NCBI RefSeq assembly: GCF_019649055.1
Contig: NW_026570316.1
Coordinates: 124,001-188,000, forward strand
Direction: 5' to 3'
Source: Paramacrobiotus metropolitanus
Taxonomy: Eukaryota; Tardigrada; Eutardigrada; Parachela; Macrobiotidae
Length of the DNA: 64,000 nt
Shown here: positions 50,597 to 64,000 of the stretch, piece by piece
Position numbering within the stretch: the first letter of the stretch is position 1
Layout of the letters: the number at the start of each line of letters is the position of its first letter
Notes under the pieces: model-generated
The model's input: the letters and a program-made list of their open reading frames with translations, nothing else
What the model was told of the DNA's origin: nothing
The model's database searches: none
Position numbers and translations under genes: made by a program

Positions 50597-52181
50597 AAAT
50601 ATGCTAGAACATTCGCTGAGTCGATCATATATTTATTTGCTAATTATTCATTATGAAAGAGAGCAAGCACAATAATATGGTATTTTACTGATGCACGAGG
50701 AAAAATTGACAAAGGAATGCAGATTACGCTGAATTGTGTTCACAGTTGAAGGCGCGGAACCATTTCTAACGAGGCTTTCTAACGAAGTTTGCACGAGGGA
50801 TTTTTGCATTTCTTAATATTTCATGCGTGAATTCACGTATCCAGAGAAATTCATAACTTTTGTACGTGCTGGGTAGAGATCAATGTGCAGTTAGTAGCTG
50901 CAACTGCACAGAGCTTTTATTAATGTGGATCCAAAAACACGACATCGCGCGCGCCGACCATAATACCAACAATACTTTAATTATCGTATTTATCATACAT
51001 ATCTTAATAGATATTTTATTTGAAATTCTCAACCATTCTTATCTACGACCGAGGATTGATAATCCCGATTTCAATCCCGCTGCTTCCGCGACCGCGTTAG
51101 GCCGCTGCTTCTCGGTGTAGCAACATTGAACATATTTAACAACTTGCTTCCTCTCTCTTCCGGCACATTACACAAGCGGTGCAGCAATCAGTCCCATAAA
51201 TTTGTCTGCCAAATAATTTCTTCCTACTCCGTCTCCAACTCCTGTAGCCTTTTCATTAGCAATGCGCAGTGTAGGGACCATTAAATTTTTATGGTCTTCT
51301 TTGTTCCAGCACAACTCAAACAAATCCGCGCCAAATCGAAATACCAGTGTCCAATAAGGAAACCCCTGGCCAATCAGAGTACCTACAGTATACAAGAAGG
51401 TCATGAGTAGACCAGCCGGTAGCGCAGGTAGACCAGCTACAGCAGGCAATTACTGGTATCGGAAGTTGGCAAGTCGATAAGCAGTCCACAATATGAATGT
51501 CTACTGTGGGGAAAAGGCATTCTTTATTGGTTGCGAACCCAGCCGACAGGTACGTGTTTGCGCAGAGATACTTCCAGAATCTGAAGCCTGATACTTCCTT
51601 TTTAAGAAATCAAGGCATTACCGCATCGAATCGGCGCTGTCCACCCAGGATTCTTTTGGCAACGATGGTACGCACGCTTATGACTTGGTGCTAGTGCTGT
51701 AGGGACGCTAGTGACCAACTTCTGATCCTTTTTGGCTGTATTACAGCTGCTACCGAGAAGTTTCGCCATCGTCAAGCGTGCGATGGCATTGGCTGGATAC
51801 TACTTGTGTGACTATAATTATATCATTGTGTTTGAAGTGCTCCAAAAACCATGTACTTACCTATAATCATACTGGTAGATGAACTGAATTTTACTAAAAT
51901 ATAGTAGATGGGGTATATTACGGCAGATATCCTTTGCCTACGAAGTAATGTACGAGTACAGAATGCAACGCTGTATGTCTCGTACTGTATTTTACGGCCA
52001 AAATCAGAATTAAATTTTACCGGTCGTGAAAGAGTTCTAGCAAATAGTTCTTTCTAGCACCAATTTGCGAGCAATTATTGTTGAATTCCTTGTTATCCAA
52101 CAGCAGTCATTGCCAGTCAACCACTGGTTAATATAGTCACAAACGCGCTTTTAACAGTGACAGTAAAAAGCAAGTAAAGTA
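50597..52181. other. Intergenic region before the retrotransposon
   Basis: An open stretch of about 93 codons on the minus strand (51168-51449: ..LLMTFLYTVGTLIGQGFPYW.., hydrophobic) has no ATG start and no clear partners. It is noted but not called. Otherwise nothing coding is seen. Confidence 0.35.
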
Positions 52182-52532
52182 TTGTGAGACGAGGGCTCAC
52201 TAGCGTTCACGCCTGTGGCGCTAGGCGCTACGCCGATGGATTACGGTCTGTGTTGTGTCTCGCTTCTGATTGGCTCGCGCTTTATTAGTGGGCGCGGTAT
52301 AGCACGTGCTGCACACTGTTGCACAGTGTGGAATTGGCTCTACGATTTGCGATCGAGCTGTGCCGATGAGGATGTTGATTTCTGTTGTGCAGACTTTCAA
52401 TATATTAAAAGTCAGCAATTAGCGGTGCGACGTCTAGTGTTTTCGCTTAGTTCGCAATCCAGATCGCATTGCTCACTCCACAGGATCTATCCCGTTTAGG
52501 TCTCTGTCCCTGGATCACAGTTGGATCTAGCA
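52182..52532 (+). repeat. Candidate 5' LTR (boundaries tentative)
   Basis: Starts TGTGAGACGAG and ends ..GATCTAGCA, giving TG..CA ends, six bases before the PBS. It contains TATATTAAA at about 52400. The 3' LTR needed to fix the borders is outside the window. Confidence 0.4.
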
Positions 52533-52537
52533 TTAGA

Positions 52538-52548
52538 TGGTAGCAGAG
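52538..52548 (+). other. Primer-binding site for initiator Met-tRNA
   Basis: TGGTAGCAGAG is complementary to the 3' end of animal initiator Met-tRNA (..CTCTGCTACCA). It is placed just after the putative LTR end. Confidence 0.7.
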
Positions 52549-52599
52549 CCGACAGCGGTTCTCTGATTGATTTGACTGGACTTGATCTGATTTGATTTG

Positions 52600-52655
52600 T
52601 CAGGCAAAGTTGGCCTGTTATTTGTGCCAGGCAAAGTTGGCCTGTTATCTGCTGT
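52600..52655 (+). repeat. 26 bp direct duplication in the leader
   Basis: CAGGCAAAGTTGGCCTGTTAT occurs twice in tandem with a short spacer (TTGTGC). Confidence 0.75.
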
Positions 52656-52756
52656 GACCAGTAAGGCACAGGTCTGTGGAACAGCAAAGCGCACACCACA
52701 AGCGGTGCAATTTCCCCCATTGGACGCGGATTACCAGCTTTGGTTTTCGGTACAGT

Positions 52757-52894
52757 GTCTTCAGCGAAGACCTGTGCTGTTTCCTCAGCTGTGAAAGAGT
52801 TCAAGAGTTTCAGTCGTCAGTGTTCCTCGGTGTAGAGTCTTCAGCGAAGACCTACACTGGTGTCACTGATACTCGGCAAGGCTTCAGCGAAGCC
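52757..52894 (+). other. Three hairpins with a common TTC-AGC-GAA top
   Basis: GTCTTCAGCGAAGAC (52757-52771), GTCTTCAGCGAAGAC (52837-52851) and GGCTTCAGCGAAGCC (52880-52894) each form a 6 bp stem and 3-base loop. The first two extend further across a one-base bulge (ACAG/CTGT and GTGTAG/CTACAC). The stems vary while pairing is kept. This is typical of structured leader RNA, for example for packaging or dimerisation. Confidence 0.6.
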
Positions 52895-53456
52895 TAAGCC
52901 GTGGGCCGCAAGAGGCGAAGCGCCGAAAGGGGCGCACGGGAAAAGACAGATCAGACTCCTCCAAACTGGAGTAGAGCACCACTACTGTTGCTACGGCAGT
53001 CAGCCGGCACAGTAGCAGACTCAAAGCGTGCGGCACAACCGCTACGGAAAAGCGGCAACGCGGGAGCGGAATTTGGAGAAGAAATTGGATCATTTGGATC
53101 GTTTTCCCGTGGAACGGACGGTGAACAGGTAGAAAAACCGTTATTAATTACGGGATTGGCTAGTCGATAAAATTGGCAATTTCTATTGGTCCGTTCTGAG
53201 CTGAGCATAGACGTAGGCGGAGTTTTGCACGCGGTGCGCATGTCTGGTCGTTGACCGTGACGTCAGGCTGATATAAAATTTAAGTGGACTAACGCTATTG
53301 GTCAGTTATCTGAGCTGTGATTGGCCGAAATTTGAACCGAGTAAATTGAACCAGCGGACCAATAGGAACGAAGTAAACAACGTAAATGGGGATTTTCCGT
53401 TGAACTTGAACGGTAATGAGAAATCTGAATTGAGACGAGATATTTGAAAGGGAAAA

Positions 53457-53856
53457 TGACCTTTTGAGTTGAGACGAGCAGGAAAGTGACCTTTAACACC
53501 GGAAGCTGACCTTTGACTTTGAAAAGTGACCTTTAACGAAAAGTTTTAACTGACCGAAATGAACTTTTGAGTGACCTTTAAGATTCTGAATCGACCAACA
53601 GTGACCTTTTACCGAAGTTGAAATCGAGGCAATTAGTAGTACAGCGATATCACCAGCTGTAGAAAATTGTCCCTAAACTTGTTCTGAACTGTAGAAACGG
53701 TTTCGAAGTTTTGTCTGAAAAGTGACTTTTTAGGGCAAATCTCTCGAACTTTTTATCGAAAAGGTGACCTTTAGACGGAACTTAGTCGAAATTTCTCAAC
53801 TGAAAAAGTGACCTTTAAAAAGGACTTAGAAAATTTTGCAGAATAAGGTGACCTTT
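53457..53856 (+). promoter_or_regulatory. Leader cluster of nine TGACCTTT octamers
   Basis: Exact TGACCTTT begins at 53457, 53487, 53507, 53527, 53572, 53602, 53765, 53809 and 53849, all in the same orientation, plus a variant TGACTTTT at 53723. This is the complement of AAAGGTCA, the NBRE site of NR4A receptors. The layout recalls the clustered protein-binding sites in the gypsy leader insulator, but that is an analogy only. Confidence 0.75.
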
Positions 53857-53931
53857 AAGACAATTCAATAAACCATACAATAACGTGTGTGTGAGAACAA
53901 TTGACAGGAACGTCCAAGTTATCCGATCAAC

Positions 53932-56900
53932 ATGGATAAAGACAACGAACAGCCGACATCTACCGGCAGCCAGGGAAGCACAAGCTCCCGCAGCTCACAG
54001 CAAAGCGCACCGAATCCGTACAAAAAGGATCTGCACTCATATTCACGTCCCGTTGGACATGAACGGAGCACTCGGGCGCCCAAGGCACCCGAGAAAAAGG
54101 ACTCACGGGGCTCTGATAGCACCTATCAGAAGGCGCTCGAGGCGGTCGCCAACCAGGAGAGTTCCAGTGACGACCAGAAACACACTCCCGCGTCTGTGGC
54201 GGGAGGCAAACCGATGAACCAGAAAAAGGTCACGGGAGAGGAAAAATCCACAGAGAAAGGAGTGGAAGCAGTGGGAACATCACAGTTGGATGTCACCACT
54301 GTCAGAATCGATGAGCAGGATAAAAACGTGAACCTGGCTCAAACGGAAGTTGGAAAGACAAAGGTCACCGAAGAGGAATTGGCTGAGCTTGGATTGGATG
54401 ACCTTTCACTGAACGACAGGACTGCAGGTGATGACCTTTGGGCAACTCCAATGGTCTCAGACGAATCAAACGAATCGTACTTCACGGATGATGAAACGAC
54501 GATGAACATGTCCTTCCAATCCGCGATGAGACAAGCCGATCGCGCTGAAGGGATGACACCCTTCAAAGACATACCGGAGCACCTTATTGAACGATCGAAA
54601 ACAGGAAAGGTCATCAACGTACGACCACCATCACCGAACAGTCCCACGTCAACTCTGAGGAGACGCGTGAAGGAGTTGGAAGAAGAACTAGAAGTCAAGG
54701 AAGGCCAGGTGACGAAGAAGAAACAGGAATATCAAAATCGGATAGGATCTCTGGATGCTCGTATTTATGAATTGGAGCAGCAACAAGCTGACTTGGAAAG
54801 CGCAGCGGATGAATGGAAGATCAAATACGAGCGTCAAAAAGAACTCGCTGAGGAATACCTAAAAATGGTAGATGACAGAGAAATGGAAGGTCATCTCGCA
54901 GTCAGTGACCTCAACGAGAGTATGTCAGAGGAATCAGCAGAAAGGTCACGGCACTTAGCCGAATTGAAGGACGAATGTGACTCATTGAAACAAAAGGTCA
55001 CCGAAGCTGAAGCTAAGAGGGACGAATACGCGATCAAACTCGCCGAAGCCTCTCAACGATTGTTGGCAAATACCACTGAAGTATTTAAGCTCAGAAACGA
55101 TCTGAAGCTCCGAGACGAGAATATCGGAATACTCCAACGAGAATCGAAAGGTCATCAGAGGAGAGCTGATGAAGCCGTTCAAGCGGCTAAGGATCTGAGG
55201 GACCTTACAGCCACCGAAGGCGTGAGGCTGAGCAACGAGATAAAGCAGGTTACGGAAGAGAATGGGGTGTTGAAAGAAAACATCGAAAAGGTCACCGAAG
55301 AGAACGAAGAACTGAAAGAAACTGCCAAGACGTTAGCCGAACAAGGCTTAAGTTGGGAGCGAGAAGCGCGCCTTCTGGACACAAAGGTCACGGCGCTCGA
55401 ATTGAAAGACAAAGAGTGGAAACAAATGGTTCATCAGAAGACACAGGAGAGTACAAAACTCAACATGGAGTTGACCGACATGACGCAAACGGTCATGGCA
55501 AGAGACGATGAGCTCACAGCAGTTAAAAACCAATTGAGATCAGCTGCTGAAGAATACCAGAAGCTTGAAGGAGACGTGACCCAGTTGGCCGAACATATCA
55601 AAAAAGTGGAAAACGGCACCGAAAAGATCATTCAGGAGAAAACGTTCCAACTCCATCAGCATATGCTAAAGGTCAACAAGGAGAACCAGAACCTGATAAC
55701 CGAGAAAGAGCAATCGGAGTTGAAAATCAGATGTCTCGAGGATGAGAACAAGGCTCTCAAAATGTCCAATAAGAATAAAGATGAGCAACTCCTTCAATAC
55801 GGAGTTAAGACGGTAACAGTGGAATCACCGCCGCCCAGTTACAGTAAGGCACATGAAACGGGCACGGGCAAAAGCTTCCATTTTGAAATGCCGCTACGAA
55901 CTGGAACCGGTAAAGGAAGCATCAAAGCGGAACGAAATGGCGAAAAGGCAAATGAGGACAAAGAGCAGCCGTCGGAAAGTTACCCGCATATGAGTCGAGG
56001 TGACCTTTCACAATTCCCCCCACACATTGAAACGAATGTGTTCATCGACGAAGGGCACCGAGACAGACCGTCTAGTCAGCAAGAACGCCCACGGAAGTCT
56101 CGTTATACAAAGATGCGACGAAATACAAACGATGACGAAAGTAACGAAGAAGAAGAAGACCCGAGAGGAGGCTTTGCATTAGCGAAAGCACTCAACTCTA
56201 TGGCCAGGAAAACACCACTCGTGACCTTTGACGGCAGTCGCGACACTGTGAATGGTTGGACAAGACTGGTAAGAGATACACAGAGAACGTACCAGCTCAC
56301 CGACGATCAAATCATGATCGAAATAGCCAGTGCGGTGAAAGGTCCTGCTAAAAACTGGTTCGAAAGCGAAAAAGATATTGCATCAGAAGACGGAATCGAA
56401 TACTCAGTAACGGAGTGGATGGACAAATTCAAAGACGAATACGGTGACCGAGATGAAGAAGTCTTAGGCTTACGTGAGGCCTACGCAAGGAAATTCGAAC
56501 TTGGAAAAGAATCACTTGATCAATACTATCAGGCGATGATGCGATTCAAAGCAAAGAGAATCATCACCGAGAAGCAAGCAGTTGGCTTCTTAATCGAAGG
56601 ATGTAGAGTGGATAACGAACTCTACAAGGCATTGCGTACACAGAAATGCAGAACGCCAACTGACGTGAAGGACTTTTTCCGGCATTGGTCAGCCGGGGAA
56701 GAAAAGTACAAAGCCCCTAAAGGTCAACGAAATCAAGACTATGCAACGATCCGTACAGGCCAAGTCGAAAATATGCCGCAACAGAGGATGGCAGCTGCAC
56801 CAACTCAACAACCGGTCGAATACCGAAGGGAAACTCCGGTGCAAGAGGTCACCAGGGAAGTGACCTTTATCGACAGCCAGACTGGGCAGCCGATAACATA

Positions 56901-57711
56901 TGCGATGGTAGCGGCAATACAAGCGGCGGCTCAAGTGAGACCGGCACCTCAGAATGTGGCCCCACCGGCGCCACAGAACGTGGCCCCCTTGAATGTCGGA
57001 TTACCACAGCAGGGAGTGGGTAACGGAAACTTCGGTGGAAACGGCTATAGAAACGGGAACTGGAACGGAGGTCAAGGCAACTTCCAGAATCAAGGCCAGG
57101 GTCAAGGCAACTTCCAGCCGAATAGAGGAAACCAGAACTACCAACAGAATCAAGGGTCACGAACGGAATTCAAATTCCAGATGATCGATGGATGGGTGGC
57201 GAACAATGCGCAGATGTGCCAGTACTGTATGTATGGCAACCATCAGACGCAAGGATGTAAGTTCGCGAATACACCGCCAGAGCAGAACCCAAACCTGTTT
57301 GCCTTTCGAGAATGGCAACGGTTGCGCAACCTTGGTGGTTGGCGCCAAGCAATGGCAAACGGATATGACCTCATCGCCCAATGGTATCAGCACAAAGCGA
57401 ACTCCCCGAATCAGCAGGGAAATGGCAATGGCGGCGGCCAAAATGGCGGCGGCTACGGCCGTGGTGGCTACGGCCGCGGTAACTTCAGAGGAAGGGGCAG
57501 AGGTTACGGCCGCGGAAACTGGAATGGTGGCAACCGAGGCGGCGGAAACGGAGGCGGCCAAGGAAACTACCAACAAGGCGGTGGCCAAATTAATGGCGGC
57601 GGACAGAACCCGGCAAATGATGGCGGCCAACAACAAGGAAACGTGCAAGGAAATGTGCAGGGCGCGCAACAAGGTGGTGCGCCGGTTCAGGGAAACGAGC
57701 AAGATCAGTAG
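53932..57711 (+). CDS. gag: Gag polyprotein, long coiled-coil type
   Basis: 1259 residues from ATG 53932 to TAG 57709-57711. Residues 1-240 are polar and likely disordered. About 240-640 form a very long, Glu/Lys-rich coiled coil (VKELEEELEVKEG.., ENEELKETAKTL..), unusual for Gag. A retrotransposon gag domain follows at about 760-930 (TFDGSRDTVNGWTRLVRDTQ.., VKGPAKNWFE.., EWMDKFKDEYGDRDEEVLGL). A Gln/Pro/Asn-rich stretch leads to a CCHC zinc knuckle, CQYCMYGNHQTQGC (C-x2-C-x4-H-x4-C), and then an RGG/GN-rich tail (GRGNFRGRGRGYGRG). It should bind genomic RNA and form particles. The -1 frameshift signal sits at its last codons. The gene holds 15 or more copies of the AAAGGTCA octamer in either orientation. 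Confidence 0.9.
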   Translation: MDKDNEQPTSTGSQGSTSSRSSQQSAPNPYKKDLHSYSRPVGHERSTRAPKAPEKKDSRGSDSTYQKALEAVANQESSSDDQKHTPASVAGGKPMNQKKVTGEEKSTEKGVEAVGTSQLDVTTVRIDEQDKNVNLAQTEVGKTKVTEEELAELGLDDLSLNDRTAGDDLWATPMVSDESNESYFTDDETTMNMSFQSAMRQADRAEGMTPFKDIPEHLIERSKTGKVINVRPPSPNSPTSTLRRRVKELEEELEVKEGQVTKKKQEYQNRIGSLDARIYELEQQQADLESAADEWKIKYERQKELAEEYLKMVDDREMEGHLAVSDLNESMSEESAERSRHLAELKDECDSLKQKVTEAEAKRDEYAIKLAEASQRLLANTTEVFKLRNDLKLRDENIGILQRESKGHQRRADEAVQAAKDLRDLTATEGVRLSNEIKQVTEENGVLKENIEKVTEENEELKETAKTLAEQGLSWEREARLLDTKVTALELKDKEWKQMVHQKTQESTKLNMELTDMTQTVMARDDELTAVKNQLRSAAEEYQKLEGDVTQLAEHIKKVENGTEKIIQEKTFQLHQHMLKVNKENQNLITEKEQSELKIRCLEDENKALKMSNKNKDEQLLQYGVKTVTVESPPPSYSKAHETGTGKSFHFEMPLRTGTGKGSIKAERNGEKANEDKEQPSESYPHMSRGDLSQFPPHIETNVFIDEGHRDRPSSQQERPRKSRYTKMRRNTNDDESNEEEEDPRGGFALAKALNSMARKTPLVTFDGSRDTVNGWTRLVRDTQRTYQLTDDQIMIEIASAVKGPAKNWFESEKDIASEDGIEYSVTEWMDKFKDEYGDRDEEVLGLREAYARKFELGKESLDQYYQAMMRFKAKRIITEKQAVGFLIEGCRVDNELYKALRTQKCRTPTDVKDFFRHWSAGEEKYKAPKGQRNQDYATIRTGQVENMPQQRMAAAPTQQPVEYRRETPVQEVTREVTFIDSQTGQPITYAMVAAIQAAAQVRPAPQNVAPPAPQNVAPLNVGLPQQGVGNGNFGGNGYRNGNWNGGQGNFQNQGQGQGNFQPNRGNQNYQQNQGSRTEFKFQMIDGWVANNAQMCQYCMYGNHQTQGCKFANTPPEQNPNLFAFREWQRLRNLGGWRQAMANGYDLIAQWYQHKANSPNQQGNGNGGGQNGGGYGRGGYGRGNFRGRGRGYGRGNWNGGNRGGGNGGGQGNYQQGGGQINGGGQNPANDGGQQQGNVQGNVQGAQQGGAPVQGNEQDQ

Positions 57712-57732
57712 GCGCCGGTGAGCCTACTGATC
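57690..57732 (+). promoter_or_regulatory. Programmed -1 ribosomal frameshift signal (gag-pol)
   Basis: The slippery heptamer G GGA AAC (57690-57696) is in the correct Gag phase. It is followed by a 6 nt spacer and a perfect 11 bp stem, GATCAGTAGGC (57703-57713) with GCCTACTGATC (57722-57732), and an 8 nt loop. The Gag stop lies inside the stem. The -1 frame is open from 57621 and leads into Pol. Confidence 0.85.
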
Positions 57733-59363
57733 GCCCCGACCCTAAACCACCGGATAAAAAGGGAACGGAAAGGTCACCACTGCAGAACGGTACTGCAGTG
57801 AACGTGACCACTGCGACGGCTAGATGGATGCCGTCAGCGCAAAACGGAAGTGGACCGGCTACATGGATGCCGCAACCACAGGAAACGGCTAGATGGATGC
57901 CGTCACATAAGTGGAAAGAAACGGCTAGATGGATGCCGTTATATAATCAGAAAGATACGGCTATATGGATGCCGCTACAGCAACAAAAAGAACTGGTTAT
58001 CGGGAAACCAGTACAAATGAATCAAAGGTCACCGCAGAATGGTACTGCGAGTGGAAATGTGCAACGGGACCAAAGGTCACCGCAGAATGGTACTGCGAGC
58101 GGAAATTGTCGTGACGGTAGCGCGACACTGCGAACAGCGCAGGAAAATGAAAGGTCACCGTATTGCAGCGAGAAGGTGTTAGCAGTGCGACGAACATTAC
58201 GCAATGCGAAGATTCAACAAGCGTTACTGAATCAGAAGAAGCCGCAGAACAGTGCTACAGACGAAGATGAAGAAGTGCACCATTCGAGATTCCGAGAGTA
58301 TATGGAAGAGAATGGCCTACCGAATCGTCAGAAGGCAACACCTTCCGTCGGAAAAGTCCAAGTGAAAAGTCAAGGAGCGACTGCGAACGCTAAAAGTCAT
58401 GGCGAAAGCGCCATGTTAAAAGGTCAAGAAACGGACTTGACACTGCGAACAGCGCAGCGACAGCAAAAGAATAGCCAACAGAACTCCGATGACTCACTTG
58501 TGGATGCAGTAACGCTGCAGCAGAAGGAAACGTGGCAAAAGGTGGCCTACAGACCGAATGGGAATCACGGGATGTGGATACCCGTGACACCGAAAGCGAA
58601 ACAGAAAGCGGGAATGTCACAAGAAGATTACTGGGACATGCGAGAATTGCGAACACAAGGCGAAAGGAAAAGATTAGAAGAATTGGTTACCGGGAAACCA
58701 GTTCAAAGGTCACCGAACCGCGTCCCAGTATTCGACGAAGCCGAGTATAAGAAGACACTCGCTGACCTAAAAGATCCACGAAATGCACCGCCAGAGAATA
58801 AACCGCCGAATTATGGAGAAAAAGTTCCCATACAAAAGTTGTCAAGTGGCGGATTTACCATGAAGCGCAACGAAAGGTCATGGGACTTAGCGCAAAATGA
58901 ACAAAAAGGATGGTCAAATGAGATGGCGCAAATGCAACAGAAGAGTGCAGTCGAAAGGTCACGGGACCTATCACAAGCGCTGCAAAAGGATGCCAGTGAC
59001 AAGTCACCAGCCCGAACAGATGGGATGTCGTCGCAAATTGATCCGACGAAAACGAACAACGAAGTGTCAGCGAAGGTGATTGAATGGATGACCCAAAAAG
59101 GATATGATACGGTAACATACGAAAAGTCAACAGAAGAGTCGAGAGACAGCGAAGAAGAAGAGTTGAAACGAGTTGACCAAATAACAAGTGAAGTCATTGA
59201 GAAACTGCGAGATAAACGAAATGATGACCGCAAAGAAGAACTGATCCATCAGACGATAAATGAAGTGACTAAAGGTCATGTGGACTGCACAAAAGCAAAA
59301 GAGCAGGTGCAGAATGTTGAAAATGTCACCACAGATAAAAAGTCTGTAAAAGAAACGACTTAA
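57693..59363 (+). CDS. Pol N-terminal extension (after -1 frameshift), ends at an in-frame stop
   Basis: Entered by -1 frameshifting. There is no ATG near the start, so an independent start is unlikely. It encodes about 556 residues without a recognised enzyme. The first part has short peptide repeats: TARWMPS, ATWMPQ, TARWMPS, TARWMPL, TAIWMPL, then RSPQNGTASGN twice, and LRTAQ motifs. The rest is polar, Lys/Glu-rich and probably disordered. TAA at 59361-59363 ends it, but the same frame reopens at once and runs through protease and polymerase. The stop is therefore either a point mutation in this copy or a readthrough site. About nine AAAGGTCA octamers lie in this part. Confidence 0.65.
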   Translation, partial: KRARSVGAGEPTDRPDPKPPDKKGTERSPLQNGTAVNVTTATARWMPSAQNGSGPATWMPQPQETARWMPSHKWKETARWMPLYNQKDTAIWMPLQQQKELVIGKPVQMNQRSPQNGTASGNVQRDQRSPQNGTASGNCRDGSATLRTAQENERSPYCSEKVLAVRRTLRNAKIQQALLNQKKPQNSATDEDEEVHHSRFREYMEENGLPNRQKATPSVGKVQVKSQGATANAKSHGESAMLKGQETDLTLRTAQRQQKNSQQNSDDSLVDAVTLQQKETWQKVAYRPNGNHGMWIPVTPKAKQKAGMSQEDYWDMRELRTQGERKRLEELVTGKPVQRSPNRVPVFDEAEYKKTLADLKDPRNAPPENKPPNYGEKVPIQKLSSGGFTMKRNERSWDLAQNEQKGWSNEMAQMQQKSAVERSRDLSQALQKDASDKSPARTDGMSSQIDPTKTNNEVSAKVIEWMTQKGYDTVTYEKSTEESRDSEEEELKRVDQITSEVIEKLRDKRNDDRKEELIHQTINEVTKGHVDCTKAKEQVQNVENVTTDKKSVKETT

Positions 59364-62300
59364 AAGACTCGGGAATTCTACGATGTCCGAACAGACGTGC
59401 CACACAGGATTGATAAGCTGAGCGAGATACTGAAAGGTCATGGCACTTCAGCGAAGGGGCAAGTGCTTCCCGATATGGATCCGGGACCGGTATCACTAAT
59501 CCCAGTGAAATGTAAGATCCACACCCTGAAGATTCAAAACGGAAAATTGCCTAAAAGAATTGAAGCATACACACACGAAGTGAAGGTGGGAGACATAAAG
59601 GTCAACGCAATGCTGGACACCGGCGCTGAGACGTCGCTGATCAGTAAACCATTTTGCGAGCAGCATGGACTTCATATGCTCCCATTGCCACCGGACAGAC
59701 TGGTGAAGATAAATGGAATTAGTGGAACGTCGGGGTTTATGGTGACACACTACTGCGTAGCACCAGTGACCTTAAGGAAAAAGACTAGCGAACATTCCTT
59801 CTACGTCCGACCGAAATGTGATGACGTACAGGTGTTATTGGGATTTGACTTCTTGGAAAAGAAATTCGTACTGATGGATAACGAAGGAGAAGAAGAGAAG
59901 GAAGATGACCCGAAACCAGTCGCCAAAGTTCAAGTCGGAAAGGTCACCGAATTTGTAACACAGACGGAAAATTCTCAAATTACCGATAAAACGTTAATCC
60001 CAGTACCAGAGGCACAGGGAAAGGAAAAGAAAAAGACAGCGCAAAAAGAATTGTCCACATTTGAGCAGTTGAAAAGGATTCAGCAAGAGATTGAAAACAC
60101 GTTAAATCGGACACGGCTGACACAAAAGGGAAGAGAAAAGGTCATCCCAGTACCAGAGGCACCGGGAGTGACGCAAGTGCAGCAGAAGGTGACAAAAGTG
60201 CAGCAGGAAGCAATTATCCCAGTACCAGAGGCACTGGAAACGAAAAATGAAAATGGAAACGTTGAAAAAGTTATCCCAGTACCAGAGGCACTGGGAACGA
60301 AAGATGATAGGTCACCAGTACCAGAGCGTACCTCGGATCCTTTCGAACCACGATCTGCTACCCAAAATGAAGCTGTCACACAGAAAGAAGCGCCAGCTGC
60401 AGCGAAACAATCGCTCGTGTCAGGCATGGAGTGTGCAAAGCCTATCCCAGTACCAGAGGCACTGGAAATAAAGACGGCTAAAGTGGAGAAGGATAAAAAG
60501 AGTGAAAGGTTACGAATATTGAAACGAATAGCTGAAGAAGAACAGATGTTCACAAGTGAAATTCGCGACAAAGCGCTTGAGCAGTTAAAAGGTCACCGAA
60601 CTCAGAAGGAACAGGAGATACCTTCCGACGAGGCAAGCGTAATCCAAACTGAAAACGACGTCCAAGAGACATTAACCCCAGAAGAACGAGCCGGGAGTTG
60701 TCACCACGGTTACTACGAGGATCCGTGTAGAGTGCAACCACAATGGAAATGCACTGAATGTCGCCAAAACGCCTCTCAAGATGACCTTTCAGAATGGCCG
60801 AAATGTAATGCCGCGTTAGCGGACCTTAAAGGTCATGTCCAAAAGGAAGTGAGAAGCATCATGCGGACAAATGAAATGTGGAAACCACACATTGAACGGT
60901 ACCATTGGAACAGATACCGGACTTGGCTGTCATGCGTGAAAAACTTCATTGCTGGAAGAGGTAAATGGCTAAACCACTGGCAGCAACGTGCGGAAGATGG
61001 AATCCAAGATACGCTTGACCCGGTATCAACGGAACGAAAACTCGCAAGAGAGATGGACGAAATGAACGAGGAAGTACAGTTGTGGGAAGAAGCGAGAATA
61101 GAACTGTTTTGGGACTTCCGCGTTAATCATATGTACAAAGGTCAAGGGAGAACAGTTATATTCCCAACAGGACTAGGCACACCGGTATATGAGTCAGTGG
61201 TGGTGTTCTGTAAAGCACTCAAAGAAGATGACTGGGACATATTTGGCAAATATTGGACGAAATTTGAAGCGGAGATTCCCACATTTGACGTAAAAGAGAT
61301 ACGAGAATTACAAGTAACCCGGAAAAGAAGGTTACCGGGGTTAATGGAAAAAAAGAAAGTGACCTTTGCACCAGATCCAGATGGAGTTGAATACCCAGAA
61401 CGAGGTGGTGATACGTGGTGCATGTACGAAACTATTCCAAGCGATGACTGGGTCACCGAAGAGCTGATGGCAAACTGCGTCTTCGTCGGTCCCAAACGAC
61501 CTAAAGGTTATGAAACGGTCCAACAGGGCGAAGCCGAGAAAGAGACTGCAAAAGAAGCAGAGAAGGATGAAACAGCTAAAGAGACAGCGGAAGGAGGATC
61601 GAATGAAACGGAAGAATCACACACCTCAGCTTTTAACATTGCAAAGATGTTAACAGATAGAGGAGAAATGTGGAGAAAATTTAAAGAGGAGGTAGAAAGA
61701 ATATCAAATGAGCAGCAAAACCCAGTAACTGAGGCAAAAAACGGGGAAAGGTCACTTGATAACGGTGAGGAATATCCGCCGGTCAAGTTGACCGAAAAAC
61801 CATTAATGAGCTTGGAAGAAATGGATGAACTGGAAAAGTCAAAATCGGATGATGAGAGGTCAAGCTCGGATCAGACGGAAAGGTCATCAACAAGAATACG
61901 GGTAACAAGGAGTCACCCGAGAATCGCTGTACGAAATGGGCGCAAGGGAAAGAAAGCGGATAAACCTCTGCTCGAAAATCAGAAAGCAAAAAAACTTAGC
62001 GATTCGAAAGAAAACGAAAGTGACCTTTCATCAGAAGACGAAGGAGTTGATGAGCGCCCACTTGAAAAAGCTGACAAAGGTCAAGCCACTGCACAGCAGT
62101 ACGAGAGCAGTGAATCAGACTCAGAATGGACAAGTTCAAGCGATAATTCAACGACTTCAGAAGATTCGGGTGTAAATGACCTTTCAGAACAAGAAGATTT
62201 ACTGGACTTGGATGAAGATGACGAAGTGGACGAAGAAAAAGAAAAAGAGATAAAAGTCAGAAGAGTGAAAATAGAAAAAGCAAGACTTTCGAAAGATGTG

Positions 62301-64000
62301 ATTAAAGTCTACAGTGACCAACGAATCAAATTGAAACCGTCAATCTGCACACGCGTAAAGGTCAAGATGGGAAAATATGCACCGGCTCAAAACAAGTTGA
62401 TGTTCACACCGGTCCCACAAGTTGAAACTGATGTGCAACCGTTGGCAGGAGTGACGGACCACAGAGGAAAATATTTCGAAATCGTCATCGCGAATCATAG
62501 TAGTAAATACCAAATCGTGAAGAAAAATCAGCTTCTTGGCTATGTGGAGCCTTACGAACATATGGAGAACGTAAAGGTCAACGCGGGCACAGTAAAGAAT
62601 GTACTTGATGACCCAGAGGTGGATGATACGACAAAAGCTGAATTAACAAAGATAATTGGAAACTTGAAATTAGGACCTGACCTCACTGAAGAGCAAAAGA
62701 ACGACGTGTATAACGCGTTCTGGGAATTTTGGAAAGTCTTGCCGACATCCAAGAAACCGTACGGAGATGTGAAAGGGGTCACTCACGTAATCGATACGGG
62801 AGATGCGAAACCAGTTAAATGTAACCCGGCCAGAACGAGTTGGACAGGCCGTGAGTTCATAACAAAGCACATTGAAGAGATGTTGGCACAAGATGTAATT
62901 GAGCCCTCAGACGCCGAATGGAGCTTTCCAGTTGTGCTAGCTGTTAAAAAGAACGGCGATGGGACAATGGGAACAAGATTTTGTGTCAACTACATCATGC
63001 TGAATAAGTTAACGAGAAAGAACAACTACCCGCTACCGAATCCAGATGAGTTGCTTGATGCGTGCGCAGGAAACAAGTACTACGGGAAAATGGACTTGCA
63101 AAGTGGATTCTGGCAGATCCCAATGGATCCAGCGTCAATCAATAAAACGACCTTTGTAACACAAGATGGAATGTACCGATTTAAAAGAATGCCATTCGGA
63201 GTTTGCAACGGACCAGCAACATTCCAATTGTGCATGGACAAAGTACTGTCGAAAGCGAAAAGAAAAGGCTGCGTTTTCGGGTACATTGACGACGTTATCT
63301 TCGCCGGAAAAACATGGGCGGTTTTCATGCAGAATTTGAGAAACGTCTTAATGAGCCTAGTTGAAGCGGGATTCACGATTAAACCGACGAAATGTGAATT
63401 TGGAATGAGACAAATGGGATTTCTGGGTCATATACTCAGTGAAGATGGAATTCGAATGGATCCTGAAAAGGTCACCGCAGTCTCAGAATTTAAACGACCT
63501 CAAACAGAAAGGCAATTAAGGTCATTCCTCGGACTGGCGAATTATTATCGCAAGTTCATAATGGGATATGCACAGAAGACTTGTCATTTGTACGAATTGC
63601 TGAGACAAGATAAGCAAGTGAAAAAAGACTGGACAAAGGTGCACGAAGAGGAATTCAACAGTTTGAAACAACTGTTGTGTGAAGGTCCAGTATTGGCAAA
63701 ATTTGACCCGGCAAAACCGACAGTTATTGAATGCGATGCGAGTAAAGAGGAAATTGGAGCGGTACTGTCACAAGACGGCCACCCGATCGCGTACGCGAGC
63801 CGCGTCTTACACGGAGCCGAAAGAAATTACGGCGTGACGGAATGGGAATGTCTGGCAGTAGTATTCGCTGTCAGAAAGTTTAAGCCATTCATTGACTATG
63901 CGGAATTCACCGTACGAACGGACCACCAGGCGCTGACAAACTTGTTAAGGTCAGAAACAAATAAAGTCGGAATGAACCCGCGCTTGACAAGATGGGCGAT
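59364..64000 (+). CDS. pol: Pol: aspartic protease, long linker, reverse transcriptase, RNase H (runs off the window)
   Basis: One frame, continuous from 59364 to the window end (no stop found by hand translation). The protease has VNAMLDTGAETSLIS (catalytic Asp codon at 59616) and LLGFDFL. A linker of about 890 residues follows, very long for the family. It has IPVPEA repeats (about 59998-60470), a possible zinc site (CHH..C..CTEC near 60700-60760) and acidic runs. A typical pre-RT segment ends near 62560 (KNQLLGYVEPYE). The RT has KMDLQSGFWQIPMD, MPFGVCNGPATFQ and the active site GYIDDV (63282-63293). RNase H begins with IECDASKEEIGAVL (Asp codon 63735), YASRVLHGAERNY and RTDHQALTNL. Integrase is expected beyond the edge. 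Confidence 0.9.

Follow-up and report, generated by a model that had tools for sequence, protein, structure and literature searches.

One octamer under selection through the genes of a tardigrade Ty3-like retrotransposon: a possible landing array for a host nuclear receptor

Transposons carry transcription-factor sites, mostly in their LTRs and leaders. NR4A nuclear receptors bind AAAGGTCA as a monomer, and the NBREs known to us are single regulatory sites; we likewise know of no motif array through the genes of gypsy. In the transposable elements of C. elegans, motifs of 45 transcription factors are enriched more than 20-fold, but the available part of that report does not describe a single word that is selected for and saturates coding sequence (PMC8896005). 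The DNA transposon VANDAL21 of Arabidopsis, according to the accessible text of two papers, carries one short, dense and family-specific motif, mainly in noncoding repeats (PMC5735166, PMC10398659), and the gypsy insulator is described, in the portion of the source at hand, as a cluster of sites with a TGCATA core in the 5' UTR (PMC2374998). In size, the nearest parallels are Burro of planarians and Ogre of plants, giant gypsy-like LTR retrotransposons (PMC6431247, available text). A paper on tardigrade transposons does not name Paramacrobiotus in its accessible part (PMC11071193). The octamer AAAGGTCA, the term NBRE and the term retrotransposon do occur jointly in one publication (PMC12539977).

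The element described here, from Paramacrobiotus metropolitanus, carries 84 copies of the octamer AAAGGTCA (reading TGACCTTT where it lies on the minus strand) along the transposon, 66 of them in ORFs, unlike the single-site NBREs. It has the same eight letters as the NBRE consensus, including the required first A, and an NR4A domain is present in the host. As in VANDAL21, the word is short, dense and family-specific, and its leader sites lie in short repeats in one orientation; however, the octamers are mostly coding and the element is an LTR element rather than a DNA transposon. VANC is self-encoded, whereas a reader of the element's own is hinted at only by sub-threshold linker-histone and AT-hook matches. 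Similar to gypsy with its insulator, the element is Ty3-like and has clustered sites in its 5' leader, but the repeated word differs from the TGCATA core and 75 of the 84 octamers lie outside the leader. With Burro, the element shares an internal region of more than 20 kb and extra coding capacity, although the extra domains differ, and the available text mentions no motif array for Burro or Ogre.

The element and its octamers

The element is a Ty3-like LTR retrotransposon of ~24.5 kb (52183-76644), the 3' portion of which extends beyond the window, that is, the whole 64-kb stretch of DNA that was analysed. Its two LTRs (52183-52537 and 76290-76644) are identical over 355/355 bp, and the Pfam domain order PR-RT-RNase H-IN is that required for a Ty3/gypsy LTR retrotransposon. 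The features within the window are as follows.

52183..52537, plus strand: 5' LTR, octamer-free, 355 bp, recognized by identity to 76290-76644
52538..52549, plus strand: putative primer binding site TGGTAGCAGAGC, adjoining the LTR and assigned by sequence, presumably a match to the initiator-Met tRNA
53457..53856, minus strand: leader array of 9 TGACCTTT in a single orientation (octamer count), starting at 53457, 53487, 53507, 53527, 53572, 53602, 53765, 53809 and 53849
53932..57711, plus strand: Gag ORF, with a coiled-coil look and a CCHC-like CQYCMYGNHQTQGC, both by eye; 10 AAAGGTCA at 54225, 54360, 54606, 54941, 54993, 55147, 55287, 55383, 55668 and 56719; 5 TGACCTTT at 54399, 54432, 56001, 56222 and 56861
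57621..59363, plus strand: Pol-frame linker ORF, ending with TAA at 59361; 9 AAAGGTCA at 57769, 58024, 58072, 58150, 58419, 58705, 58873, 58954 and 59271
59364..65057 (window ends at 64000), plus strand: Pol ORF (protease, linker, RT, RNase H), with Pfam matches gag-asp_proteas, RVT_1 and RT_RNaseH; within the window, AAAGGTCA at 59433, 59597, 59939, 60137, 60588, 60828, 61137, 61747, 61879, 62076, 62357, 62573 and 63467, and TGACCTTT at 60782, 61360, 62021 and 62177

Past the window follow IN (Pfam rve), five further ORFs and 34 additional octamers up to 76289. Pfam searches of the Gag and linker ORFs returned zero families at E<=0.001, an env family was absent from the Pfam results for ORF3, ORF4, ORF6, ORF7 and two ORF5 pieces, and Rfam and tRNA scans of the 64-kb window gave zero matches.

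The initial annotation had counted about 32 AAAGGTCA and 18 TGACCTTT in 53457-63474, and a recount gives exactly these 50 copies, making the octamer the commonest 8-mer of that segment, with the runners-up overlapping it; the full window holds 34 and 25, respectively. The extent then assigned to the element (53457-63474) proved too small, and the whole element contains 58 plus and 26 minus octamers, on average one per 290 bases across leader and genes. The near misses thought to be frequent are not, the one-mismatch neighbours numbering 0-7 copies each in 24.1 kb as against 84 for the octamer. The word had also been said to occur in all codon phases, which holds for plus sites, whereas minus sites use only two, avoiding a TGA stop. 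The reported dip in density at RT/RNase H is real (9, 12, 7, 9, 10 and 3 octamers per 2 kb from 52183). In all 20 genomic loci compared, including the window copy, the LTR and the first 0.9 kb of the leader (52183-53439) contain 0 octamers, and the remainder of the leader (53440-53931) contains 8-17 per locus, all minus and 0 plus, set in similar short units whose number varies among loci.

Selection on the octamer in genes and among copies

Protein constraint does not explain these numbers, as had been argued initially: codon-preserving shuffles fail to reproduce the 15 octamers of gag, 31 of pol and 3 of IN, yielding means of 0.82, 2.02 and 0.19, and shuffles that also preserve junction dinucleotides yield 1.17, 3.45 and 0.30. 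On the element's own proteins, which may themselves have been shaped by the octamer, it occupies 67 of 88 protein-permitted places (one ORF octamer counted twice, 66 being distinct), compared with 116/2856 for 150 permuted words; occupancy is 54/72 on the plus and 13/16 on the minus strand, and AAAGGTCA ranks first among 8-mers in an unbiased occupancy scan. Octamer-compatible tripeptides are in excess over local shuffles as well (KG[HQ], 18 versus 2.0; [KEQ]RS, 24 versus 7.0). Selection seems to retain the octamer despite some cost to the proteins, which appear altered by it.

Conservation was assessed only in 51957-55957 and 61100-65400, across 20 and 30 genomic loci. Related copies preserve the octamers far beyond their flanks: across five segments they are intact in 77-93% of comparisons (3297/4081, 2876/3758, 5826/6969, 1462/1595 and 4550/4874), versus 27-43% for other 8-mers (39, 27, 37, 43 and 36%), pair counts that are not independent, since the loci were taken as those matching the window copy best and are mutually related. 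Per-base conservation is 0.96-0.98 within the octamer and 0.78-0.91 beyond it, with sharp edges, except for position 9, which is conserved at 0.92 with C in 66%. Where the amino acid is the same, codons in octamers are kept in 1626/1687 cases (96.4%) against 0.691 expected, and equally so on the plus (1221/1267, 0.9637) and minus (405/420, 0.9643) strands. Third positions change less often in octamers than elsewhere (0.63 versus 3.63 and 1.16 versus 3.42 parsimony changes per column), a slowdown reached in 0/5000 permutations in each of both comparisons; at second codon positions, octamers show no such slowdown (1943 and 2917 of 5000 permutations). Many sites are unfixed, octamer columns being present in at least half of the loci in 22/42 and 17/21 cases. 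Collectively, the shuffles and the conservation among copies strongly support the initial proposal that a nucleic-acid motif is selected for within the limits set by the proteins. Of the two outcomes initially named as refuting it, similar counts in codon-preserving shuffles and octamers conserved no better than their flanks, neither occurred. Copy L027 was left out of tree B (parsimony) and included in the intactness, per-base and same-amino-acid-codon comparisons; it had been considered as a relative with a different word, but its linker is swapped for a local repeat and its RT part retains octamers.

The same genome contains a sister family of similar general layout, eight loci of which, taken with their flanks and overlapping slightly, have 0 octamers over 41,054 bases, indicating that elements of this type do not generally need the array in this host. 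Long 3' ORFs likewise occur in the sister copy examined, which has no comparable word. The best candidate words of sister copy C50 are ACCGGAAC (6/15 places), GTTCACCA (6/16) and the 9-mer AGTTCACCA (4/4), and in L085 alone GTTCACCA occupies 5/6; such small numbers bear no comparison with 67/88, and the sister family may have a weak word of its own.

Candidate readers of the array

The element probably uses the octamer to attract a DNA-binding protein. We take AAAGGTCA to be the NBRE, the classical monomeric site of NR4A receptors (Nur77/Nurr1/DHR38), and ERR and FTZ-F1 prefer CAAGGTCA. P. metropolitanus has an NR4A DNA-binding domain with A-box (L082 exons, joined by eye), matching NGFI-B (1cit) at E 1.1e-51. 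In the element, the first base of NAAGGTCA is A in 84 cases, C in 4, G in 2 and T in 3, and only 4 copies of CAAGGTCA accompany the 84 of AAAGGTCA, the first A not being exchanged for C. Genome-wide, AAAGGTCAC occurs 19414 times versus 3461 for the reversed control, and CAAGGTCAC is unenriched (1895 versus 1871). A nuclear-receptor reading of the octamer is therefore plausible on sequence grounds.

The octamer, spread over the later part of the leader and all of the internal region behind it, would be a selected double-stranded protein-binding site, with the host NR4A (Nur77/DHR38-type) as its likeliest reader. Together, the leader cluster and the genic sites may form a dense array to which the receptor and its cofactors are drawn along the element, and such recruitment could raise transcription or resist silencing. 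We consider the chances evenly balanced that the reader of this selected double-stranded DNA array is host NR4A or a protein like it, and that its binding activates or protects the element. A further reading, put forward tentatively at slightly below even chances, is that the element has made most of its body, genes included, into a nearly saturated array on which a single host nuclear receptor lands, and has reshaped its own proteins in doing so. A simple promoter-enhancer would not be expected to leave the LTR and the first 0.9 kb of leader octamer-free, and double-stranded recognition does not need leader sites in a single orientation. Here selection for one exact octamer runs through genes, about three quarters of the permitted places being filled, which makes the element a remarkably clear natural example of dual coding; the array, if true, would be a second, DNA-level code overlaid on coding sequence. 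Were the reader a stress-responsive receptor such as NR4A, element activity would be tied to the physiological state of the host. A single motif, a single candidate receptor and numerous copies, with a motif-free sister family as built-in control, provide a directly testable system, relevant to how mobile elements evade silencing and how host regulators get exploited.

The main rival to the NR4A reading, though an unlikely one, is a protein encoded by an extra 3' ORF of the element that binds the octamer and coats its own copies, a sequence-specific anti-silencing akin to that of VANC. Five extra ORFs lie downstream of pol, the top Pfam family of two ORF5 pieces is Linker_histone (sub-threshold, E 0.049 and 0.085), the IN ORF has a sub-threshold AT_hook (E 0.036), and the absence of the octamer from the sister family would fit a self-encoded reader too. 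We know of no linker histone or AT hook that reads such an octamer. The available account describes VANC arrays as dense, specific to a family and carried by repeats (PMC5735166). However, nine ORF5 homologues lack a Linker_histone match, ORF3, ORF4, ORF6 and ORF7 have no Pfam family at E<=0.1, PDB searches with ORF4, ORF6 and one piece of ORF5 gave nothing convincing, and the AlphaFold model of an ORF5 homologue is unusable (mean pLDDT 34.5). Moreover, the long 3' ORFs of the sister copy come without a comparable word, and on this view the word would be identical to a classical receptor site merely by coincidence. It is quite doubtful that another host protein (ERR, FTZ-F1, HR39 or an architectural zinc-finger) is the reader, with the leader cluster acting as a gypsy-like insulator. 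Domains that we regard, by eye, as ERR-like (L055, L058), FTZ-F1-like (L053) and HR39-like (L067) are present in the host, but ERR and FTZ-F1 are disfavoured because CAAGGTCA is lacking and CAAGGTCAC is unenriched genome-wide. The 8-17 clustered leader sites resemble the 12 Su(Hw) sites in 340 bp reported for the gypsy 5' UTR in the accessible text (PMC2374998), yet an insulator leaves the sites throughout the genes unexplained.

Action on reverse-transcribed cDNA, with an NLS-bearing host transcription factor coating it for nuclear import or guidance of integration, would explain why the sites use both strands and extend along most of the element, genes no less than noncoding DNA, but it does not predict the octamer-free first 1.26 kb and appears improbable. 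An RNA motif for packaging, export, splicing or small-RNA evasion would suit the single orientation of the leader sites in 20/20 loci; nevertheless, in coding DNA both orientations are equally constrained (0.9637 versus 0.9643) and similarly saturated (54/72 versus 13/16), favouring double-stranded DNA and leaving this alternative highly improbable. As for codon usage, base composition, tandem duplication or gene conversion, the leader sites do sit in similar short units that vary in number, but the shuffles, the occupancy against permuted words and the unbiased scan counter the first two, and the fall in conservation within 1-2 bases of the octamer excludes conversion tracts as the cause. Codon usage, composition and gene conversion are thus all rejected for the compared body sites, and the probability of an artefact is close to nil.

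As a purely descriptive look at helical phasing, the distances between octamer pairs lying less than 150 bp apart (n=55) give resultant lengths that reach 0.25 near 10.2-10.5 bp, with 0.32 at 3 bp.

Architecture of the element and distribution of the octamer

The octamer (plus form AAAGGTCA, minus form TGACCTTT) is housed in a Ty3-like LTR retrotransposon of about 24.5 kb at 52183-76644, read in the window to 64000 and then, with its numbering continued along the contig, in loci L051, L052, and L081; the host, the tardigrade Paramacrobiotus metropolitanus, has a genome of 169.8 Mb, and its contig C96 contains the window.

Features of the element (window numbering)
52183-52537 and 76290-76644: LTRs, 355/355 bases identical
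53932-57711: Gag
59361: in-frame TAA, dividing the pol frame into two parts
pol, within the window: protease, RT, and RNase H (Pfam matches)
64898-66631 (L051:898-2631): IN ORF with the integrase, past the window, after RNase H
downstream of pol: five extra ORFs of 533, 424, 787, 512, and 439 aa
69398-71761 (L051/L052): ORF5

The identity of the LTRs points to a recent insertion. No Pfam family was found at E<=0.1 in ORF3, ORF4, ORF6, or ORF7. Some NCBI gene models of ORF5 homologues from the same genome are fused, as judged by eye, to Gag-like or ORF4-like segments (P0124, P0127, P0129; P0123, P0126), hinting that transcripts are spliced.

The initial annotation had put about 50 octamers in 53457..63474; we count 50 there and 84 in 52183-76289. 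In 20/20 loci (window copy included), neither the LTR nor the leader's initial 0.9 kb has any, and the next 0.5-0.7 kb hold 8-17, every one TGACCTTT. Four more TGACCTTT lie upstream of the 3' LTR (75650-75820). The plus-strand excess in coding regions is due to what the proteins permit.

The part of the window outside the element (1-52182; 52,182 bases) has 9 octamers, where Markov orders 1 to 4 predict 1.5-2.1 and order 5 predicts 4.4; C follows 7/9 of them, and 7/9 sit within stop-to-stop ORFs of at least 140 aa. Across the genome, AAAGGTCAC occurs 19,414 times (reversed word, 3,461), CAAGGTCAC 1,895 times (control, 1,871), and AAAGGTCAG 4,042 times (control, 2,427). At 40 AAAGGTCAC per element, the excess would correspond to about 400 full elements, a number comparable in magnitude to the 435 first-look candidates found with the RT stretch (40 of them scored). 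On contig C1, the first 100 forward places in the list include 49, 39, 25, and 9 whose distance to any other place in it exceeds 2, 5, 10, and 20 kb, or 27.5, 21.9, 14.0, and 5.0 per Mb; the unthinned control, with all its forward places counted, gives 10.3 per Mb. An excess beyond clear copies is possible, and its source could be host sites or decayed fragments.

A selected motif absent from the sister family

The octamer is a selected double-stranded motif that extends through the greater part of the element and is absent from a related (sister) retrotransposon family of the same genome. Protein sequence had been held not to explain it, and the counts bear this out: synonymous permutation (1000 per ORF) yields 0.82 octamers in gag and 2.02 in pol, and swaps preserving junction dinucleotides (60 per ORF) yield 1.17 and 3.45, against 15 and 31 observed. 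Six later ORF pieces together hold 21. In an unbiased 8-mer scan, AAAGGTCA ranks first by a wide margin. The octamer is present at 67/88 places where the protein tolerates it unchanged (plus, 54/72; minus, 13/16; the ORFs overlap slightly, and site 68211 enters the counts of two), whereas 150 permuted words occupy 116/2856 possible places. Codon shuffles and this occupancy comparison exclude a coding artefact.

The element's proteins themselves look bent toward the octamer. Compatible tripeptides exceed local shuffles for KG[HQ] (18 vs 2.0), [KEQ]RS (24 vs 7.0), KV[IMTNKSR] (31 vs 14.4), and DL[FLSYCW] (13 vs 5.6), and weakly for [LMV]TF (4 vs 1.8, sd 1.3); in a sister copy, the same five number 0, 3, 5, 3, and 0 vs 0.9, 2.8, 4.5, 3.5, and 0.9.

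The initial annotation had also proposed aligning related copies, and there the octamers proved far better kept than other 8-mers or their flanks. We aligned the leader and gag start of 20 loci (window copy plus 19 others with 80-86% identity to it) and the RT of 30 (window copy plus 29 others, 77-90%), being the best 20 of 42 and 30 of 40 matches listed; the comparison covers 51957-55957 and 61100-65400. In five segments, 81, 77, 84, 92, and 93% of ordered comparisons find the octamer intact, against 39, 27, 37, 43, and 36% for the full set of remaining 8-mers; in a sixth (LTR and early leader), there are 2 comparisons only, at its edge. These conservation counts, like the tree counts below, share ancestry, and their events are not independent. 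Per-base conservation is 0.96-0.98 at all eight positions and 0.78-0.91 in the flanks, except for position 9 (0.92), where C is favoured (66%) and G falls below 1% among aligned loci; in the window copy, G directly follows 2/84 octamers. Sites do turn over: there are 42 distinct site columns in leader/gag and 21 in RT, 22/42 and 17/21 of them shared by half or more of the loci, and 5 and 1 confined to a single locus.

Among octamer cases with an unchanged amino acid, 1626/1687 also have the identical codon, where the behaviour of these codons elsewhere predicts 0.691; the two strands are alike in this (plus, 1221/1267; minus, 405/420). On trees, third-position octamer columns underwent 0.63 and 1.16 changes vs 3.63 and 3.42 (0/5000 permutations each), and noncoding octamer columns 0.32 vs 1.39 (0/5000) and 0.38 vs 1.85 (221/5000). 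First codon positions are likewise slower (88 and 215 of 5000 permutations); second positions show no slowing (1943 and 2917 of 5000). In one family copy, L027, a local repeat with abundant AAGTACAG and CGGCGAAA words stands in place of the linker region.

The sister family matches through protein P0040 (64% identity across 64% of the query). In its copy on contig C50, gag is 28% identical to the window element's over 183 residues, a 1276-aa 3' ORF has no clear match to ORF3-7, and no word comparable to the octamer was found. There are 0 octamers in L083-L090, eight loci of this family that total 41,054 bases with their flanks and some slight overlaps counted in, and 0 in 4,501 bases of a third subfamily, represented by one locus (L091).

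Candidate readers and known parallels

AAAGGTCA is the NBRE of NR4A receptors, as the initial annotation had also noted; ERR and FTZ-F1 favour CAAGGTCA, present in 4 copies in the element. Few 8-mers drawn at random would agree letter for letter with a classical receptor site, which serves as an argument rather than as a test. In the host genome, zf-C4 gives 63 exon matches. A gene on contig C45 has a DNA-binding domain and A-box (three exons joined by eye) that match NGFI-B (1cit) at E 1.1e-51 and in 77/87 residues (hand count from the alignment); RXR follows as the next-best class (E 3.9e-32). Along the element, the octamers would be occupied by NR4A or a similar protein, and such occupancy would open chromatin or raise transcription.

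The element may instead encode the reader itself. For two pieces of ORF5, the best Pfam match is Linker_histone, below cut-off (E 0.049 and 0.085), but the match was not reproduced in nine ORF5 homologues, and the structure predicted for one homologue was an unusable model. An AT_hook match in the IN ORF is likewise sub-threshold (E 0.036); a GRPRK stretch resembling it was seen by eye in sister protein P0040. Another possibility is that an octamer-bound protein coats the cDNA for nuclear entry.

Returning to occupancy by an NR4A-like receptor, the leader cluster may be likened to the gypsy insulator (PMC2374998), and the dense family-specific array to the targets of VANC, the self-encoded anti-silencing protein of VANDAL transposons (PMC5735166, PMC10398659). 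The parts are of known kinds, namely a giant Ty3 element, the NBRE, and motif arrays in transposons; coding sequence saturated with one motif is, to our knowledge, new, and the portions consulted of the open-licence literature yielded no description of a retrotransposon of such build.

Elsewhere in the window lie two very similar galactosyltransferase ORFs (PF01762; 13741-14703 and 42291-43313), about 28.5 kb apart, and a THAP-domain ORF (PF05485; 34481-35563) followed by further ORFs.
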